A model generated the notes under the pieces. That model saw nothing but the letters and a program-made list of their open reading frames with translations, ran no database searches and was not told where the DNA came from. A program made the position numbers and the translations under genes. Positions 31,129 through 38,765 of a DNA stretch of 64,000 bases are shown here, piece by piece. Each line of letters starts with the position of its first letter. Positions within the stretch are counted from its first letter, which is position 1. The DNA comes from Bacteroidota bacterium (lineage in GTDB: Bacteria; Bacteroidota; Bacteroidia; UKL13-3), in NCBI GenBank assembly GCA_947477885.1, contig CANJUD010000002.1, forward strand, positions 186,001-250,000. Direction: 5' to 3'.

Positions 31129-32325
31129 TTAATTTTTTACAATCTTAATTGCACCACTTTTTCCTTGCTCTCGAAGAAAATAAACACCACACTTCAAGTT
31201 TGAAAAATCTTGTTCTTTTATATTATTTCCTGAATATATCAACTGCCCCAAGCCATCATAAAGTGCAACCACCTCTTGATTATTTACAACATATATATAA
31301 CTACTAAATGGATTTGGATAAACTTTCAGGTTTGAGATAATTGTATCATAACTATTAAGCGACGTATTAATGCTATTGCCTCTCACGCATAATAAATAAT
31401 TTGAATTTGTTTTTGTATCATAAGTTGTAATGCCGAATTGCGTATTCCAGTACCAAGCTTTTGTGGTTTGATTGGGTAGTGTGGTTGACGACCAATAATG
31501 TTTAACACCAATGCTACCAAAAAAAGCAGTATTTACTGATGGGTTAACTGTAGTTTCATCATTGATAGATTGCAGTTCTTTAATATTGGGAACTCTCCAA
31601 TCGTTATCACCTGCAAAGCTTAATGACTCAGCATTGTTTAATGCTTGCTCCCAAGTAAATATAGATGTGCTAGGCGTTTTCTGCCAAACCAAATTGGTAA
31701 GATTATCTGTAATGGTTCCATCCCCATTATCAGTATAATGATTGGGAATTGTTGCTGGAGCATTATTATCTCTAACCGCACGCACATGAAATTTCTTTGA
31801 TCCGCCCGCACTAATAGTTTCTGCTTTGGGGTGATTACCAATTCCACCTCCAGCATTGGTTGCCCATATTTTAGTGGCGTCATTAACTTGCGATTCACTG
31901 GTCCACCAATATTCTGCAGCCGTCTTTGTAAATACTTTTGTATCAATTGCAGGATTAACATTTTGCATATTTAATATACTAAATGCTTCTTGTGCATCAG
32001 GAAGCCGCCAATTAGAATAGCCCCCCAAAGTTAAAGTGTCACAATATATTATTGCATTTTCTATAGTCATTTCTCCACCATCTGTTTGCTGCCAAGTCAA
32101 TCCTGTTATGGTATCGGTGACCGTTCCATTTCCATGTAATATAAAATATGGGGAATTTACTAGATAATCATGATCTTCGCCAAAAGTATTAGTATAACTC
32201 GTACTTTCACCCGTATCGGGCAAACGCAGCATAGTTTTTTTTACACTTTGTGCAGTAATTTGATAAACCTGAAATACACAAAAGAATCCTATGATTTTAT
32301 AATACATATCTGGCTTATTGAACAA
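31129..32325 (-). CDS. DUF1566 (Lcl_C) double-domain T9SS protein
   Basis: 398-residue secreted protein: signal peptide (about 1-25), two consecutive DUF1566/Lcl_C domains (about 65-185 and 195-325) each with the signature TGLTWQ/TNLVWQ, WRLPDAQE/WRVPNIKEL, and YWWTSES/YWSSTT, then a T9SS sorting domain (KVYPNPFSSYIYV ... GVYFLRE). The fold resembles C-type lectin/FGE-like lipoprotein-binding domains; ligand unknown. It overlaps the upstream YHYH gene by 11 bp and leaves 10 bp to the HupE-type gene, so it belongs to the same transcript. Confidence 0.88.
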   Translation of the reverse strand: MFNKPDMYYKIIGFFCVFQVYQITAQSVKKTMLRLPDTGESTSYTNTFGEDHDYLVNSPYFILHGNGTVTDTITGLTWQQTDGGEMTIENAIIYCDTLTLGGYSNWRLPDAQEAFSILNMQNVNPAIDTKVFTKTAAEYWWTSESQVNDATKIWATNAGGGIGNHPKAETISAGGSKKFHVRAVRDNNAPATIPNHYTDNGDGTITDNLTNLVWQKTPSTSIFTWEQALNNAESLSFAGDNDWRVPNIKELQSINDETTVNPSVNTAFFGSIGVKHYWSSTTLPNQTTKAWYWNTQFGITTYDTKTNSNYLLCVRGNSINTSLNSYDTIISNLKVYPNPFSSYIYVVNNQEVVALYDGLGQLIYSGNNIKEQDFSNLKCGVYFLREQGKSGAIKIVKN

Positions 32326-33928
32326 TGAGCTTTTTATAAACCTGCGATGTCGACAATTGTATCTTTACCAGATAAAGTCCCTTTGCCAAATTTCTGGTAT
32401 CGATAGTGTTTCTGTAACTGCTGACATTATAAACCAATTGCCCATCCAAATCGTATATACATATTCCTTGAATTTCCTTTTCTGAAACATGATTACCTAA
32501 TTGAATATATAATAAATTGGTACTTGGATTGGGATATAATACTATTGAATTATCGACAAAAGAAATATCCTTCATACCCACAGGAACCTTGCATTGTTTG
32601 AAACCATTATAATTGGAGGTAGTTTTTCCCGATGGTGTGTAGAAATTAAAGGTATAAGACCCGCTTGTGTTCCAGCTATATTCAACCGAATCAGTGTTCC
32701 CATTTAAAGTATAAGTTAAAGTGTATCCATTATTACTTGCATTTGGTTTGCATTTCTTAATCAATGCACCTTTTAGTGGCTTGCCAGCTGGACGAATTGG
32801 AGAAGCGGCTGCTTGTGGAATAATTTGATGCGTGGCATCTTCGTTTACTACGCCAACCATTTTACCTATCATATAAGGTGCTGAGGTGGTTCCATGATAA
32901 TGATAAACCCCATTAAATATATGACCATGATTGCCGTCAAGTGCAAGCATATTGGAACCATCAGGCTCTTTGATTCCATATACCGCAAATCCATCCAAGC
33001 CAAAAGCAATAGGCACAGTAGGCAATGTATAATTATACAAATGTAGCGGTGCAATATGATAGTGATAGTCATCAGCTCTACCGCAATGACCACCATAAGT
33101 ATCAAGCTGTCCATCTGTATAGGAATCGACACCCGTATTGGTATGTACATTAAAAATAGGAATACCGTTAACAGCAATCGCTATGGCCCCTCTGGTAAAG
33201 TGTATATTGTCCACTGCAATAGGATTACTTGAAATAGTTGGATTTAAAGGAATTGACCATGCATTACTTCCTGTGTAACATTGAGGTATGGGGAACTGCT
33301 GCTGCCATCCAGAATCCGAAATCCCTACCATCATATCATGTGTGGTCGGAATTCCTTTCGATTCTATATAGAAATAAGTTTGATCCCAACGAGTATATAC
33401 TATGGGTTTAAAGGGAACAAATGCAGAATCTATATATATTGGATCGGTAGTGGTACCAGCTATTTTCATTATTTTGGCAGTAAAACTATATAATGTTGTA
33501 ATCACCCCCACTAAGAACATAGGCAATAAATATTTAAACTTTTTACTATCGGCGAATATATAAATGGACGTTCCTAATAATGCCAATACAATAAATAACA
33601 ATAAAAACTTCTCCTTGCCCGAACTTGCCCCTGCTGAAGAAACTGGCAAGGCTTCTATTTTGCGGTTGAGTTCAACCACACGTTCTTGCTTTTGTAATAC
33701 GTATTTTTGATCACTAATACTCAATGAATGAAGCGAAAAATGAAGTACTTTGTTCCTTGCATCTTCTATATATACTTCGTTATTCTTTAATATATAAAAC
33801 GACCCTGATACCACTCGATGCTCCTTCTCAATATTCCATTGTTTCAAACTCAAATGTTCATAACTTAAATTATGAGCGAAGGCCTGCAAAGCACAACATA
33901 TAAATAGAAGAATTATTGTTTTTTTCAT
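32315..33928 (-). CDS. YHYH-domain protein with internal transmembrane pair and T9SS tail
   Basis: 537 residues. Signal peptide 1-18; region 20-95 beta-rich then a heptad-like stretch (QKQERVVELNRKIEAL); two strong hydrophobic helices at about 107-126 and 132-152; the YHYH domain at about 160-440 with GGHCGRADDYHYHI, GLDGFAVYG and FNGVYHYHGT; and a T9SS sorting domain (LYPNPSTNLLYI ... GLYLVKIQ). The YHYH family is widespread but of unknown function; its His/Asp-rich centre looks suited to metals. Internal membrane helices in a T9SS cargo are odd. Downstream overlap of 11 bp with the DUF1566 gene. Confidence 0.9.
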   Translation of the reverse strand: MKKTIILLFICCALQAFAHNLSYEHLSLKQWNIEKEHRVVSGSFYILKNNEVYIEDARNKVLHFSLHSLSISDQKYVLQKQERVVELNRKIEALPVSSAGASSGKEKFLLLFIVLALLGTSIYIFADSKKFKYLLPMFLVGVITTLYSFTAKIMKIAGTTTDPIYIDSAFVPFKPIVYTRWDQTYFYIESKGIPTTHDMMVGISDSGWQQQFPIPQCYTGSNAWSIPLNPTISSNPIAVDNIHFTRGAIAIAVNGIPIFNVHTNTGVDSYTDGQLDTYGGHCGRADDYHYHIAPLHLYNYTLPTVPIAFGLDGFAVYGIKEPDGSNMLALDGNHGHIFNGVYHYHGTTSAPYMIGKMVGVVNEDATHQIIPQAAASPIRPAGKPLKGALIKKCKPNASNNGYTLTYTLNGNTDSVEYSWNTSGSYTFNFYTPSGKTTSNYNGFKQCKVPVGMKDISFVDNSIVLYPNPSTNLLYIQLGNHVSEKEIQGICIYDLDGQLVYNVSSYRNTIDTRNLAKGLYLVKIQLSTSQVYKKLIVQ

Positions 33929-33946
33929 GCTATATTTTATTAGCTT

Positions 33947-34831
33947 TTATTCTATCACAAACTTTTTAGTATTTGCTTGCTTTGTTCTATTATCAATTAA
34001 TTGTATAAAATAAATTCCTGATGCAAATTGGCTAATATCAATACCAATATTGCTTTGAATGCCTGAATATATATAAATAGTTTTACCTCCCGAATTTAAA
34101 ATTCTAATACTATTGGATTGAGATAAAGAATGGACTAACGTGAAATTTAAAATATTTTTTGCTGGATTTGGATATAAAAGAAAATCCGGCGAATCATCTT
34201 TTTGTGACGAAATTCCAGATGCTATTTTTGTAACAAAAGCGATATCATCTACCAATAATATGGAACCCAATTTTCTTTGCTGTGGATCACTGCTTGCAAG
34301 CACAATGGCAACAGAATCGGGTGTGGCACCGCTTGAATAATTTAGTGGAAAACTGAAACGTGTATATGAACTTGCCGCAGTCCCTACATATATAGTATTA
34401 GAAATAATATCTCTTTGATTTGTTGAAGTGTTCCATTTTGTTAACGTAACTGCAATAGCAAAATCATCTTGTCCGATGGGTGCATATTTATACCATCCCG
34501 TAAAACTATCAGGACGGGCGGTGGACGGATAACCATCAATTCCTTTTACACCAGGCCCCATGCCGGGTTGTCCTGTTACACAAATTCCGGGAATACTATC
34601 TGTATTTTGTGTTTGCGGATTGGTGAATATATCCGATTTTAAATTGATAGTATAAGTGCCTGAATGGGCATCCGTACTTTTAGTCACTGCCGGGCTACCT
34701 GCCCATTGGTCGGGCATTTCGAAGGGGCCTTGACTATTCCAAGTTTCAAATCCAGGATTGGGAATTTGTTGCGATTTTGCGATAAAAGATATAGCAAAAA
34801 TAATTACGGAGCTTAATAACAGTTTTCTCAT
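33947..34831 (-). CDS. T9SS-exported beta-sandwich protein (PCMD/CBM-like)
   Basis: 294-residue secreted protein: signal peptide (1-20), then a single jelly-roll-like domain (about 22-205) that opens IPNPGFETWNS and has the PDQWAGSPAVTKSTDAHSGTY pattern of carbohydrate-binding modules and of the putative carbohydrate metabolism domain found in Bacteroidota. It ends in a T9SS sorting domain (LLYPNPAKNILNF ... GIYFIQLID). It lies between two YHYH genes with gaps of 18 and 10 bp, so it is part of the same operon; it may anchor the others to glycan (inference). Confidence 0.85.
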   Translation of the reverse strand: MRKLLLSSVIIFAISFIAKSQQIPNPGFETWNSQGPFEMPDQWAGSPAVTKSTDAHSGTYTINLKSDIFTNPQTQNTDSIPGICVTGQPGMGPGVKGIDGYPSTARPDSFTGWYKYAPIGQDDFAIAVTLTKWNTSTNQRDIISNTIYVGTAASSYTRFSFPLNYSSGATPDSVAIVLASSDPQQRKLGSILLVDDIAFVTKIASGISSQKDDSPDFLLYPNPAKNILNFTLVHSLSQSNSIRILNSGGKTIYIYSGIQSNIGIDISQFASGIYFIQLIDNRTKQANTKKFVIE

Positions 34832-34841
34832 ATTTTAGTTT

Positions 34842-36203
34842 TTATTTTATTACGGTTATTTTTTTAGTAATGTTTGAATGTGCATTTGATATCTTGACTA
34901 TATAATCACCTTGATATAATGTTTGGGTATCGAAATAAGCAATCGTACTTCCTTGATATAAAATAGTTTTTTGAATGAGTTTCCCAGCAATATCATACAA
35001 TGCAATATCTATATTTTCTTTGGTAATATCATTCATTTGAATTGCTACCAAATCATTGGTGGGATTGGGGAAAATGCTGATATCTATTTCCTTAATTTGT
35101 TTATCAGAAACACCTGCATTTGTTGGTGAATAGGTTGTTACATTTTCAGTAATTGAAGTAACTTTGGCTACTACCTTTGGACCATAAAATGTTGGACCTA
35201 CTACATAAGGATATGCAGAATTCCAATTAGAATCAACCGTTGCAAAATAACAATATATACCATTGGGGTATTCAGGAGTTACACAAAATCTTCCATTATG
35301 ATCATCCAGATAATCAGAAGCTGTTGTAGTATTATATTGATAGTCTTCTCTGAAATATCCAAGCGGGTAAGTCGCATTCACATCAGGACCTGCAGTCACT
35401 GTTGAGCCATCAGAATAAGTAGTTCTTGTTGTTATATTTCTCAAACTAAAACTCGATTTCATTCTCACAATTCCTCCACTTCCATCTACATTTTTATAAG
35501 CATAAGCACCATATATAGGGAAACCATCATAAGCAAAGCCAATCAACGGAGAATGCTTGGCACTATCAATAACATATAATCCATCGGCATCATATAAATT
35601 GCATATTGTTGATATTACTTTCAAATCCAATTTAAACGCACTTGGATTTTGATGGTGGTGATAGTTACCCATAGCTGGATGACCTTTTGAACAATCGAAT
35701 CCTTTTTTCTCAGCAGGAATTGCATCCCGGTTCCACACATTGTCACCCATACATTGTGGCTTTATCGGCCCGCCGCACAAAGCGTTGGTGGAACTTTTCC
35801 AAGATACGCCATCTCTATAATCAAATAATGCAACACCGTTAATAAATATACCAATATTCCCTCCAGTGGTATTGGTTGGCTTGCCCATATTTTTTGTTGG
35901 ATTTATTGGAAACTTAAATATCGCCTTCTGATCGCTTGCAAAAGACGGATTCCCATCTAAGAAAGGACCTGTGATATAGGCAGGAATGCCATGCGTAGTA
36001 ATGTAGACGGATGAGTCAGAGTATTGCACCATTTGCACATTGGCAGAAACATTATCATTAATAGATGTCGAATTTCCACTTACATAATGGCGGCCCATAA
36101 TGTTTGTGGTGTTTCGCAACCATGAAGTGATTGCTGGATTTGTTTGTGCAATACATATTATAGATAATAATGTAAATGCAGATGTAGTAATAATTTTTTT
36201 CAT
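34842..36203 (-). CDS. YHYH-domain T9SS protein
   Basis: 453 residues: signal peptide (1-19), YHYH domain (about 40-340) and T9SS sorting domain (ISIFPNPTNDLVAI ... GDYIVKISN). Hallmarks are CSKGHPAMGNYHHHQNPSAF, GFAYDGFPIYGAY and, near the end, LDDHNGRFCVTPEYPNGIYCYF, which is the fuller 'YHYH' type of planctomycetes and flavobacteria. Clustered His/Asp/Cys residues suggest metal binding; enzyme activity unknown. The upstream gap of 162 bp to the peroxidase gene contains a palindromic repeat, so transcription from the mbnP promoter may be attenuated here. Confidence 0.92.
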   Translation of the reverse strand: MKKIITTSAFTLLSIICIAQTNPAITSWLRNTTNIMGRHYVSGNSTSINDNVSANVQMVQYSDSSVYITTHGIPAYITGPFLDGNPSFASDQKAIFKFPINPTKNMGKPTNTTGGNIGIFINGVALFDYRDGVSWKSSTNALCGGPIKPQCMGDNVWNRDAIPAEKKGFDCSKGHPAMGNYHHHQNPSAFKLDLKVISTICNLYDADGLYVIDSAKHSPLIGFAYDGFPIYGAYAYKNVDGSGGIVRMKSSFSLRNITTRTTYSDGSTVTAGPDVNATYPLGYFREDYQYNTTTASDYLDDHNGRFCVTPEYPNGIYCYFATVDSNWNSAYPYVVGPTFYGPKVVAKVTSITENVTTYSPTNAGVSDKQIKEIDISIFPNPTNDLVAIQMNDITKENIDIALYDIAGKLIQKTILYQGSTIAYFDTQTLYQGDYIVKISNAHSNITKKITVIK

Positions 36204-36296
36204 TGAATAGATTTTGTAATGGTTAGTGGTTTATGTTAATGTGATTGTGTTTACAAATAACATTACGAGAGATTACTTCAAAGGGTGGGGCAGTGT

Positions 36297-36378
36297 GGGA
36301 TTCAGGATTCGGGATTCAGGGCCATACGGCAATATTCCCGAATCCCGAATCCTGAATCCCGGCCGCTAATTCCTGAAT
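36297..36378. repeat. GGGATTCAGGATTC palindrome supplying the 3' end of the peroxidase gene
   Basis: Left arm 36297-36321 and right arm 36337-36360 are complementary over at least 21 bp. A further ATTCCTGAATCC unit (36369-36380) overlaps the last codons of the peroxidase gene: its C-terminal GFRN and stop codon are repeat sequence. Confidence 0.8.
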
Positions 36379-37373
36379 CCATACTTTGGATTAAATAAAA
36401 ATTCTTTGTCACTTAAAGTTAATAGAAATGCAATTATATCAGCTTTTTCATTAGAAGTCAAAACAATTTTTTTTTGCAATTGTTTTGAAAGCGTTTTGCT
36501 CTGCTGAATTCCTGATGCATAATGATTCATCACTTCTGATAATTTTTTAAATCTACCATCATGCATATAGGGATAAGAAAATTCTATATTTCGCAAGGTG
36601 GGCACTTTAAATAATAAAGAGTCTTTTGCATCTTTTGTTATATTCATCCTGCCGTAATCGTTTAATGTTTTTTCAACTGGCAAACCATCGTTTTCAAATT
36701 CCAAATTGGTGAACAAAGGCTGCTTGTGGCAAGAGCCACAATGCTTTTGGAATAATTCAAATCCATTTTTTTCTTGTACAGTAAATTCAATTTGCTTTCG
36801 CATTACACTATCATACTTCGAGTTTGCACTTATTAGCGTTAACATAAATTGTGAGATTGCTTTTAAAGTATGTTCGCCCGTTATTATACTATCGCCAAAT
36901 GCGATTTGATATAGTTTCGGATATAATATAGTTTGCTGCAAACTTGCCACTACCCTACCAATTTTATTATCCATTTCCAAAGGATTGCTCATAGGGGCCA
37001 ATGCTTGCATATCGAGATGATTGATTGCCCCATCCCACATAAAAGATTTATGCCAAGCCAAATTCATTAATGCAGGCGAATTCCGTGTCCCAATTTTATC
37101 TTCTATACCATGACTCAAAGCATGATCAACATGCGTGAATGCGGTAAACTGCGAGTGACAACTTGCACAGGATATTTTATTATCTCTTGATAAAATAGGA
37201 TCATAAAATAATTTCCTGCCGAGCTCAATTTTATTTTCACTAAGTATGTTTTTAGTAAAATCATAATGCGGCTTGGGCCAGTTTTTCGGGACAATAAATA
37301 TATATTCATTTTTAATACTGAACGAAGCAATAAACAAACCTATTAAAACTATGATAATACTTTTGTTACTCAT
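36366..37373 (-). CDS. Dihaem cytochrome c peroxidase / MauG-family (MbnH-like)
   Basis: 335 residues: N-terminal signal/anchor (about 6-20), then a dihaem CcpA/MauG domain. Two haem motifs are present, CASCH (69-73) and CGSCH (about 213), with the conserved YPYMHDGRFKKL near 280. It overlaps the MbnP gene by 4 bp (ATGA-type), the arrangement known for methanobactin-locus mbnPH pairs, where MbnH oxidises a Trp of MbnP to kynurenine. I therefore infer the same partner chemistry rather than H2O2 detoxification. The last residues derive from an intergenic repeat. Confidence 0.92.
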   Translation of the reverse strand: MSNKSIIIVLIGLFIASFSIKNEYIFIVPKNWPKPHYDFTKNILSENKIELGRKLFYDPILSRDNKISCASCHSQFTAFTHVDHALSHGIEDKIGTRNSPALMNLAWHKSFMWDGAINHLDMQALAPMSNPLEMDNKIGRVVASLQQTILYPKLYQIAFGDSIITGEHTLKAISQFMLTLISANSKYDSVMRKQIEFTVQEKNGFELFQKHCGSCHKQPLFTNLEFENDGLPVEKTLNDYGRMNITKDAKDSLLFKVPTLRNIEFSYPYMHDGRFKKLSEVMNHYASGIQQSKTLSKQLQKKIVLTSNEKADIIAFLLTLSDKEFLFNPKYGFRN

Positions 37374-38056
37374 TGTTTCTGAATACTGAATATTTTTGAG
37401 AACTTTTCAGAAAGCAAAACAGCTTCCTTGCCTGGGGACATGATTTGATTTTGCTCAGATAAATCAATAGCTGCAAGCATTTTTTCTATATCAATTAAAA
37501 TATCAATATTTTTATTTTCTGACACATTGAGTATAATAGTTTGCAAAGCATTATCCGCATTTTGATAACCACCCAAATGAAACTGAAATTCATTATTCCT
37601 GGTTTTGCATAGTTTGCTTTTTCCTTCCAATTTCAAATTGATATATCCACTTTGCCAAGTCCAATACATTCCTTTGGTGGGATCCAAATCGCCGCCCATA
37701 GCCCCTGAAACATTGGTAATACTATCAATTCCGAGATTGAATTTAATTTTTGTAAACTTTAAATCCGAAGGCGAGTTTACCAATATATACAATGATTTTT
37801 CATCCGATGCATCGAGCAAATGATAACTGTTTGCTTCTTTCCAAACTATACTATCTTTATTCAAAAACTCAACACCTGATATGTATAGTTTTAATTGCGA
37901 GAAATAGATACTGTCCTTCGTATAACATGAATCATCTAAATGCAAAGCAGATTTGCCGAATGTGGGATGGAATAAAATTTTGTCCGTAGATTGGGCATGA
38001 AGATATCCATTGCAAAATATTGCCACAAACAAAGCAAATAGGATTTTAAGTTTCAT
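37370..38056 (-). CDS. MbnP-family protein (copper-binding partner of MbnH)
   Basis: 228-residue secreted beta-sandwich protein of the MbnP family (signal peptide 1-22). Family marks: FHPTFGKSALHLDD, the GIDSITNVSGAM-GGDLDP block, GMYWTWQSGYINLKLEG with W132 and W134, and FQFHLGGY with H160. Two cysteines (C44, C150) could form a disulfide. In characterised MbnP/CorA proteins one Trp is turned into kynurenine by the partner dihaem enzyme and a copper site forms; which Trp corresponds here is not settled by eye. First gene of the locus, behind a perfect promoter. Confidence 0.93.
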   Translation of the reverse strand: MKLKILFALFVAIFCNGYLHAQSTDKILFHPTFGKSALHLDDSCYTKDSIYFSQLKLYISGVEFLNKDSIVWKEANSYHLLDASDEKSLYILVNSPSDLKFTKIKFNLGIDSITNVSGAMGGDLDPTKGMYWTWQSGYINLKLEGKSKLCKTRNNEFQFHLGGYQNADNALQTIILNVSENKNIDILIDIEKMLAAIDLSEQNQIMSPGKEAVLLSEKFSKIFSIQKQ

Positions 38057-38072
38057 TAATATATATTACGTG

Positions 38073-38103
38073 CAAAAGTAGTGCGGGGAGGGGTAATGGC
38101 AAA
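38073..38103 (-). promoter_or_regulatory. Canonical promoter of the mbnP/mbnH locus
   Basis: On the minus strand: TTTG (38103-38100), 19-bp spacer, TACTTTTG (38080-38073). Exact match to the Bacteroidota -33/-7 consensus; predicted start near 38067, 11 bases before the ATG. A one-base-shifted GC-rich spacer gives no clear operator. Confidence 0.78.
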
Positions 38104-38144: not shown

Positions 38145-38298
38145 AATATTTCGTCCCTACGGGACTTTGCTATTTACTCATACCTTTTTTCTACCGATAT
38201 CACGTCCCTATGGGACTTTAAAAATAGTCCCATAGGGACGTGATATCGGTAGCATCAATAAAACCCGGCCGCAAAAAGTCCCGTAGGGACGAAATATT
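38145..38298. repeat. Nested perfect inverted repeat (GTCCCTA-GGGAC element)
   Basis: Outer arms of 22 bp (38145-38166 and 38277-38298) and inner arms of 27 bp (38191-38217 and 38226-38252, 8-base loop) are all perfectly complementary. Each arm carries GTCCCTA(C/T)GGGAC, itself palindromic, giving four copies. No gene inside. The transcript would fold into a long double hairpin. Confidence 0.95.
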
Positions 38299-38471: not shown

Positions 38472-38607
38472 CCGTTCTTGAAGAACGGCGACAACATGGC
38501 TCTTACAGTATCCATATAACTGTTTTGGTCGGTGAAAACACCAACCAAAGGCAGTGAATGGGATTGCCACGTCGCCCCGAATAAGATTCGGGGTCCTTGC
38601 AATGACG
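38472..38607. repeat. Cluster of short REP-like hairpins
   Basis: Three hairpins in 140 bp: CCGTTCTT-G-AAGAACGG (38472-38488), GGTCGGTG-AAAA-CACCAACC (38527-38546) and CCCCGAAT-AAG-ATTCGGGG (38575-38593), the last flanked by ATTGC/GCAAT arms. They fill the gap between the copper-type locus and the tRNA. Confidence 0.75.
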
Positions 38608-38621
38608 GCAGCTTATAGAAT

Positions 38622-38657
38622 AAAAAAAGCCCAACAAAATTGCTGGGCTAAAAAAAA
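38622..38657 (-). terminator. Rho-independent terminator of the tRNA-Met transcript
   Basis: AGCCCA (38628-38633) pairs with TGGGCT (38644-38649), with inner CAA/TTG pairs. On the minus strand it is followed by a T-run, 3' of the tRNA. Confidence 0.85.
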
Positions 38658-38691
38658 GAAAAAAGTTAAGCTATTTATTGCTTAACAAGAG

Positions 38692-38765
38692 TAGCGGGGA
38701 GCGGGATCGAACCGCCGACCTCAAGGTTATGAATCTTGTGCTCTAACCAACTGAGCTACCCCGCC
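38692..38765 (-). tRNA. tRNA-Met (anticodon CAT), elongator type
   Basis: Minus-strand cloverleaf of 74 nt: acceptor GGCGGGG pairing with CCCCGCT (first pair G-U), D-arm GCTC/GAGC with GTTGGTTA loop, anticodon loop TTCATAA (anticodon CAT), T-arm GGCGG/CCGCT with loop TTCGATC, discriminator A. The 3' CCA is not encoded. It could be tRNA-Ile2 if the CAT anticodon is lysidine-modified; elongator Met is favoured. Confidence 0.93.

Follow-up and report, generated by a model that had tools for sequence, protein, structure and literature searches.

The palindromic element at positions 38145..38298 of the window, i.e., of the whole 64,000-nucleotide stretch analysed here (contig CANJUD010000002.1 of a Bacteroidota bacterium of the UKL13-3 lineage), is most likely a non-autonomous mobile element resembling the repetitive extragenic palindromes and their hairpin-forming doublets (REP/REPIN), moved in trans by a transposase of TnpA subclass 1.2. 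The evidence comprises the dispersal of the repeat, the plan and edges common to its copies, their intergenic placement, their presence and absence in two species, the finding of its modules next to Y1 transposase genes in relatives (most of these genes having the subclass-1.2 signature) and relics of such genes. Recognition of the hairpins, cleavage within the tag and movement in trans are deduced from the known chemistry of Y1/HUH transposases.

The whole element (approximately 154 bp, unstranded) consists of four modules in the plan > > < <. The left outer module (38145..38168, plus strand) is composed of AATATTTC + GTCCC-TAC-GGGAC + TTT, with its tag truncated at the element edge, and is followed by the left spacer (38169..38190, plus) and the left inner module (38191..38217, plus; tag CTACCGATATCAC + GTCCC-TAT-GGGAC + T). 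Beyond a central loop of 8 nt (38218..38225, unstranded) come the right inner module (38226..38252, minus), the right spacer (38253..38274, minus), which is unlike the left one, and the right outer module (38275..38298, minus). The nested perfect double hairpin with four GTCCC-TAY-GGGAC cores that had been noted in the preliminary description is indeed present: the inner arms (38191-38217 and 38226-38252, with 8 nt between them) are 27 nt each, as given there, and the outer arms (38145-38168 and 38275-38298), given as 22 bp, measured 24 nt each, both pairs being 100% complementary. All four occurrences of the core GTCCCTAYGGGAC in the 64-kb window (at most one mismatch) lie within the element, against a mean of 0.03 in shuffled sequences, none of 100 of which had four. 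Folded as single-stranded DNA, the element reached −56.5 kcal/mol, whereas 200 shuffled sequences averaged −14.2 and none was equally stable (z −14.7).

The preliminary description had proposed looking for the element elsewhere in the genome, and it proved not to be a single occurrence. In its own genome (3.1 Mb in 25 contigs, 99.88% complete), the whole element gave 37 matches, and the 15-nt core with at most one mismatch gave 44, versus 0 for the reversed control; merged by hand, these matches correspond to at least 23 places. One more weak match (C3:148854), found with another query, lies outside them. All 23 places are intergenic by crude open reading frame (ORF) calling, which is blind to tRNA genes, with neighbours codirectional in 14 cases, convergent in 8 and divergent in 1. 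The ten complete copies are all built as > > < <; the copies C4:128k and C15:21k carry extra modules. Each module comprises a tag, CTACCRATATTTC, and a hairpin, GTCCC-(TAY or GAT)-GGGAC, with two modules per arm and the arms inverted. The spacing of the modules within an arm was 51–53 bp in 16 of the 20 arms and 49–56 bp in all 20; the gap between the inner cores varied from 5 to 92 bp. The outer modules begin at AATATT, and the letters TACC, present in 19/20 inner modules, are absent from 20/20 outer ones, which indicates that the edges of the family cut the tag at one point. In the window, this point falls at 38145 and 38298; hence, the limits drawn from the single copy coincide with the conserved edges of a repeat family.

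The stems have been kept through paired changes. Among 155 tag-anchored modules from the own genome and three relatives (G001, G031 and G032), 58 were retained that had at least 5 of the 10 consensus stem letters, pairing not being required. In this set, 230 of 290 cells were paired and 11 were compensatory; 2,000 shuffles averaged 211.9 and 3.1, respectively, and did not exceed 226 and 10. An RNA would show such paired changes too, and a structured RNA or mRNA 3′-end element, the hairpins of which act in transcripts (stability, termination or small RNA), would also agree with the neighbours being codirectional or convergent at 22 of the 23 places and divergent at only one. However, the edges of the repeat are fixed at the DNA level, its plan is symmetric and, as described below, its modules adjoin transposase genes in relatives, and we consider a role in RNA very improbable. 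Within a copy, the inner modules of the two arms show 3.40 differences compared to 4.51 between copies. Among the six comparisons made, this one gave a permutation p of 0.006, and the agreement comes mainly from the tag (p 0.002). The left and right spacers, in contrast, show no agreement within copies. Since inverted duplication of a whole arm would have given matching spacers, the likeness is confined to the modules, and it could be explained by correction across the hairpin or by shared subfamilies under selection.

The window site is syntenic with a site in another genome of the same genus (G001:C150; 87% complete), where other sequence is found and the element is absent. Conversely, two elements of G001 (L070 and L072) have no match at the syntenic places of the own genome, and a third (L071) is common to both (C8:33k). 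Three of the four comparable sites are thus occupied in one of the two species only and one is common to both, so that gain or loss of copies has continued since the two species separated. The earlier suggestion that the perfect arms imply selection, recent insertion or gene conversion therefore pointed in the right direction, the repeat being dispersed, absent from the syntenic same-genus spot and with inner modules that agree within a copy.

The exact core was found in 10 of 64 genomes of the bacterial family. Inspection of the core places and of the Y1_Tnp matches in these ten revealed modules next to an intact Y1 gene in six of them: they occupy both sides of the gene in G001 (L092), G040 (L084) and G045 (L086) and one side in G036 (L078), G037 (L090) and G044 (L085). 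In G035, the modules stand near a broken Y1 gene (L077), and no GTCCC-flanked gene was present among the loci inspected in G031, G032 and the own genome. The core matches of G001 and G037 lie on contigs other than that of the Y1 locus. A scan of named genomes for two modules 46–58 bp apart yielded at least 106 stretches, a list from which the record of the own genome may be missing. Among the matches listed, at least 83 belong to Candidatus Poribacteria; the other 23 listed come from Bacteroidales, Cytophagales, Flavobacteriales, Flammeovirgaceae, other Bacteroidota, one member of Ignavibacteria and one of Planctomycetota, and the named species with the doublet include Flavobacterium celericrescens and Salinimicrobium xinjiangense. 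A Y1 gene was located beside the modules in 6 of the 80 stretches examined, on both sides at L203, L220 (Poribacteria), L225 and L266 and on one side at L202 and L254. Overall, 12 loci belonging to several taxa combine modules with a Y1 gene, and at 7 of these the modules occupy both sides; their order around the gene is < < gene > >.

Six of the proteins, five module-flanked ones and a paralog from the own genome (L040), were scanned against family profiles. All six matched Pfam Y1_Tnp and passed the NCBIfam cut-off for IS200; none passed that for the REP-associated tyrosine transposases (RAYT; NF047646, cut-off 80), with no match or at most 34.1 bits, compared to 102.8 bits for the RAYT of the own genome (L042). 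Truncated genes also occur in the genus: a C-terminal gene fragment adjoins two modules in G001 (L307), and a comparable one adjoins degraded modules in G002 (L308), a picture resembling the decay of gene-bearing copies into gene-less ones. A single intergenic stretch surrounding the Y1 gene of G045 holds an array of at least 17 modules (L086, 2321-3996). The solo copies of Poribacteria (L197, 1785-2035, and other loci) are part of a longer repeated unit of approximately 250 bp with four modules in the order < < > > and, as judged by eye, inverted ends.

Assignment to subclass 1.2, as listed in a 2018 survey (PMC6006769), was made here by signature. The signature YIxNQxxHH is present in 10 of the 12 GTCCC-flanked proteins. 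Within the family, 109 Y1 loci in total were retrieved, 100 hand-chosen from the family Y1_Tnp matches listed, 4 from the own genome and 5 found via the core, the last of which favour the interpretation put forward here; an ORF was recovered from 106 of them (none from L116, L176 and L183), and 98 of these family ORFs have the signature Q..HH. GC-rich hairpins around the 98 signature-bearing genes numbered 2.30 per 300-bp flank versus 0.21 in shuffled sequences, and their density was 7.7 per kb within 300 bp of the gene and 0.91 per kb beyond 700 bp (8.5-fold). After two loci with short flanks had been dropped, each of the 96 remaining had a GC-rich hairpin on one side or more, and 62 had hairpins on both sides. 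At 50 of the 96, the upstream flank was more like the inverted downstream flank than were 95% of mismatched pairs. Pairs of hairpins 48–54 bp apart in the same flank were found at 46 of the 96 loci, compared to 12, 18 and 17 in three neighbouring bins, and this doublet was concentrated in the lineages nearest the GTCCC genes (42/73, versus 4/23 in the remaining lineages). By these counts, palindromes accompany the subclass generally within this family, and the doublet is characteristic of one part of it.

These observations also bear on whether the element could be a miniature inverted-repeat transposable element derived from a conventional DDE transposon bounded by terminal inverted repeats; its link to Y1 genes would then be a coincidence of repeats that accumulate at the same places. 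The inverted, symmetric arms would suit such an origin, as would the Poribacteria unit with its inverted ends. On the other hand, a coincidence would have to account for modules at 12 Y1 loci of several taxa and on both sides in 7, for palindromes at 96 of 96 signature-bearing loci with 8.5-fold enrichment near the gene and for the flank likeness at 50 of 96 loci, which makes this origin highly improbable.

A broader proposal can be put forward tentatively, as possible rather than probable: the subclass-1.2 TnpAs as a group may keep REP systems of their own, a large part of which would follow a new plan, in which each end bears two hairpins separated by about five helical turns (51 bp) and read jointly, as a phased pair rather than singly as REPs. 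The letters of the palindrome (GTCCC, GTTCC, ATCCC, CTTCC and others) would co-diversify with the enzyme, and the systems would span Bacteroidota and Poribacteria. In a tree of 101 proteins (95 ORFs of at least 130 aa and 6 named ones; a quick tree without bootstrap), the GTCCC type has neighbours within its 15-row group (SH-like approximate likelihood-ratio support, SH-aLRT, 99) whose palindromes differ by paired changes, namely GTTCC/GGAAC, ATCCC/GGGAT and CTTCC/GGAAG. We do not propose that palindrome and enzyme co-evolve strictly one to one, as the GTCCC type is only modestly clustered on this quick tree. The association described here would provide a concrete DNA substrate for a transposase subclass that, in the available parts of the survey, is listed without partner repeats (PMC6006769). 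It would also supply many natural pairs of enzyme and palindrome, one of them in the cultured Flavobacterium celericrescens, for studying the co-evolution of single-strand transposases and their repeats. Moreover, it puts a name to a class of repeats met time and again in genomes of Bacteroidota and Poribacteria, where one could readily take them for regulatory RNA or an operator.

The own genome contains four Y1 genes, three with the subclass-1.2 signature and one RAYT (L042). The three (L039, L040 and L041) are each flanked by a different palindrome and thus represent three further candidate REP families. None of the four was retained as the direct partner of the element, their flanks holding other palindromes. 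The own Y1 protein closest to that of L092 is 60% identical to it. With no GTCCC-flanked gene found in the own assembly, the family is either orphaned now or served by this paralog on contig C6. The element might belong to a dead fossil family that spread with a transposase since lost and is only decaying in this species, a possibility to which we assign a little less than an even chance. It differs from the reading of a mobile element moved in trans in present activity alone. The missing gene speaks for a fossil, as do the gene relics in two other genomes of the genus and the site common to two species; against it stand the perfect arms of the window copy and the other three sites, each occupied in one species only.

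Several results weigh against a mobile element served by a subclass-1.2 TnpA. GTCCC modules are absent from the stretches taken around the four own Y1 genes. No exact empty site was found for the window copy, for three sister-species copies or for the named loci (among approximately 60 pairs listed), nor did any comparison give an exact excision or insertion junction. The co-occurrence of modules and gene in G035, G040, G044 and G045 is circular because all their core matches lie at or beside the Y1 locus. Two of the GTCCC-flanked proteins (L220 and L225) have RH instead of HH. The own solo copies run > > < <, the reverse of the gene flanks and of the Poribacteria solo copies. The within-copy agreement was not significant for the inner cores alone (p 0.28) or for the outer modules (p 0.11). 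Finally, the GTCCC type clusters only modestly on the tree, with 9 changes, at least 4 of them forced by starred branches, compared to 11.5 when shuffled (2 of 500 as low).

Y1/HUH transposases recognise hairpins on single-stranded DNA, cleave it and move elements. By analogy, a subclass-1.2 TnpA would recognise the hairpins of the element on single-stranded DNA, e.g., the lagging-strand template, cut at a predicted point inside the tag, just 5′ of ATATT, and move the element in trans. The perfect arms would then result from recent spread, from hairpin-templated correction of the modules or from both. Speculatively, the 51-bp spacing may be a requirement of a paired complex.

On the minus strand, read from right to left, the surroundings of the window copy consist of a tRNA-Met gene (38691-38765), a terminator-like hairpin with a T run downstream of it (38628..38649, from the terminator-like scan), a palindrome of a second repeat family (38495-38472), the element and a promoter motif outside it. 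This motif, TTTG-N19-TACTTTTG (38073..38103, minus), fits the Bacteroidota-type promoter consensus, with 8 matches in the window compared to 2.9 expected by chance. It stands ahead of the MbnP gene (37370-38056, minus; PF20243, 152 bits), the first of a gene run (32315-38056, minus) that further encodes a di-haem protein of the CCP_MauG type and a pair of YHYH proteins, which carry Por secretion tails. The promoter noted at 38103 in the preliminary description is thus present as a motif, and the locus is of the copper type, as stated there. An operator or upstream regulatory site of this locus would fit the position of the element, which ends approximately 42 bp upstream of the promoter motif. 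Nevertheless, the repeat stands at 23 places beside many other genes and the sister genome lacks it at its syntenic MbnP locus, so that such a function is extremely improbable. The protein binding envisaged earlier can be upheld only for the palindromes as likely, predicted recognition sites of a Y1 transposase; nothing links them to the copper-type locus.

The RNA function suggested for this site was not supported. Three of the four window cores pass the terminator-like scan, as a transcript element might, but a scan of the element against Rfam gave nothing over the gathering cut-off of any family, and the 11 sub-threshold matches up to E 1 were to microRNA precursor families (nine) and Acido-Lenti-1 (two). 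Furthermore, the element lies between the terminator-like hairpin and the promoter motif and is probably little transcribed here. A local RNA role was set aside on these grounds. The second-family palindrome (GTTGTCGCCGTTCTTCAAGAACGG, 38472-38495, minus) also flanks the own RAYT gene L042 (G000:C5); its exact 17 nt recur with at most one mismatch at 4 places, with looser matches at more. A third short repeat (38523-38556) has some two dozen or more matches elsewhere in the own genome and G001.

In kind, the element belongs to the already known REP/REPIN-like mobile repeats; its paired modules, together with a transposase subclass listed without REPs, make it a version for which we found no description. 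In the literature searched, which covered few subscription journals, no paper contained the core string and none of the titles listed dealt with the repeat family. In the broad sense of REP/REPIN, the element is a dispersed, multi-copy intergenic palindrome (23 places), and palindromes flank a Y1 gene in relatives, though not for the GTCCC type in the own genome. It shares with the GTAG-tagged REP/REPIN and their TnpA_REP (RAYT) the small dispersed intergenic palindromes in inverted pairs, the non-autonomous copies and a link to a Y1 HUH transposase gene that has these palindromes on its flanks. In contrast, the 5′ foot of its hairpin reads TTTC or TCAC and lacks GTAG, two modules approximately 51 bp apart form each arm, and the proteins stay below the NCBIfam RAYT cut-off and above that of IS200. 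A GTAG does occur on the opposite strand of the inner modules, 9 nt 3′ of the hairpin.

The CGTC-tagged REPs, which are reported to occur in Bacteroidetes as well, are described in the available parts of their report as having an unpaired CGTC, a stem of 8–9 bp, a loop of 4–5 nt, a CCA tail and no linked transposase (PMC3733652). They are likewise short palindromic repeats, and the core of the present element starts with the letters CGTC, but here GTC lies within a 5-bp stem, the loop has 3 nt, TTT follows and a transposase gene is linked. Despite the CGTC start and the occurrence in Bacteroidetes, the misfit of stem, loop and tail argues against filing the element with them. The TnpA_Y1 subclass 1.2 proteins, listed without REPs in the available parts of the 2018 survey, resemble those found here in the signature Y---Q--HH, a length near 150 aa and their host phylum, Bacteroidetes; they differ in that palindromes adjoin the genes here and recur as solo copies (PMC6006769). 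TnpA_REP subclass 2.6 of the same survey, also from Bacteroidetes, is similar in that its genes have ‘atypical secondary structures’ on their flanks, further copies of which lie at other places in the genome, whereas its Y motif is YIH[QN]NP, compared to YIxNQxx[HR]H in the proteins associated with the GTCCC modules (PMC6006769, available parts).
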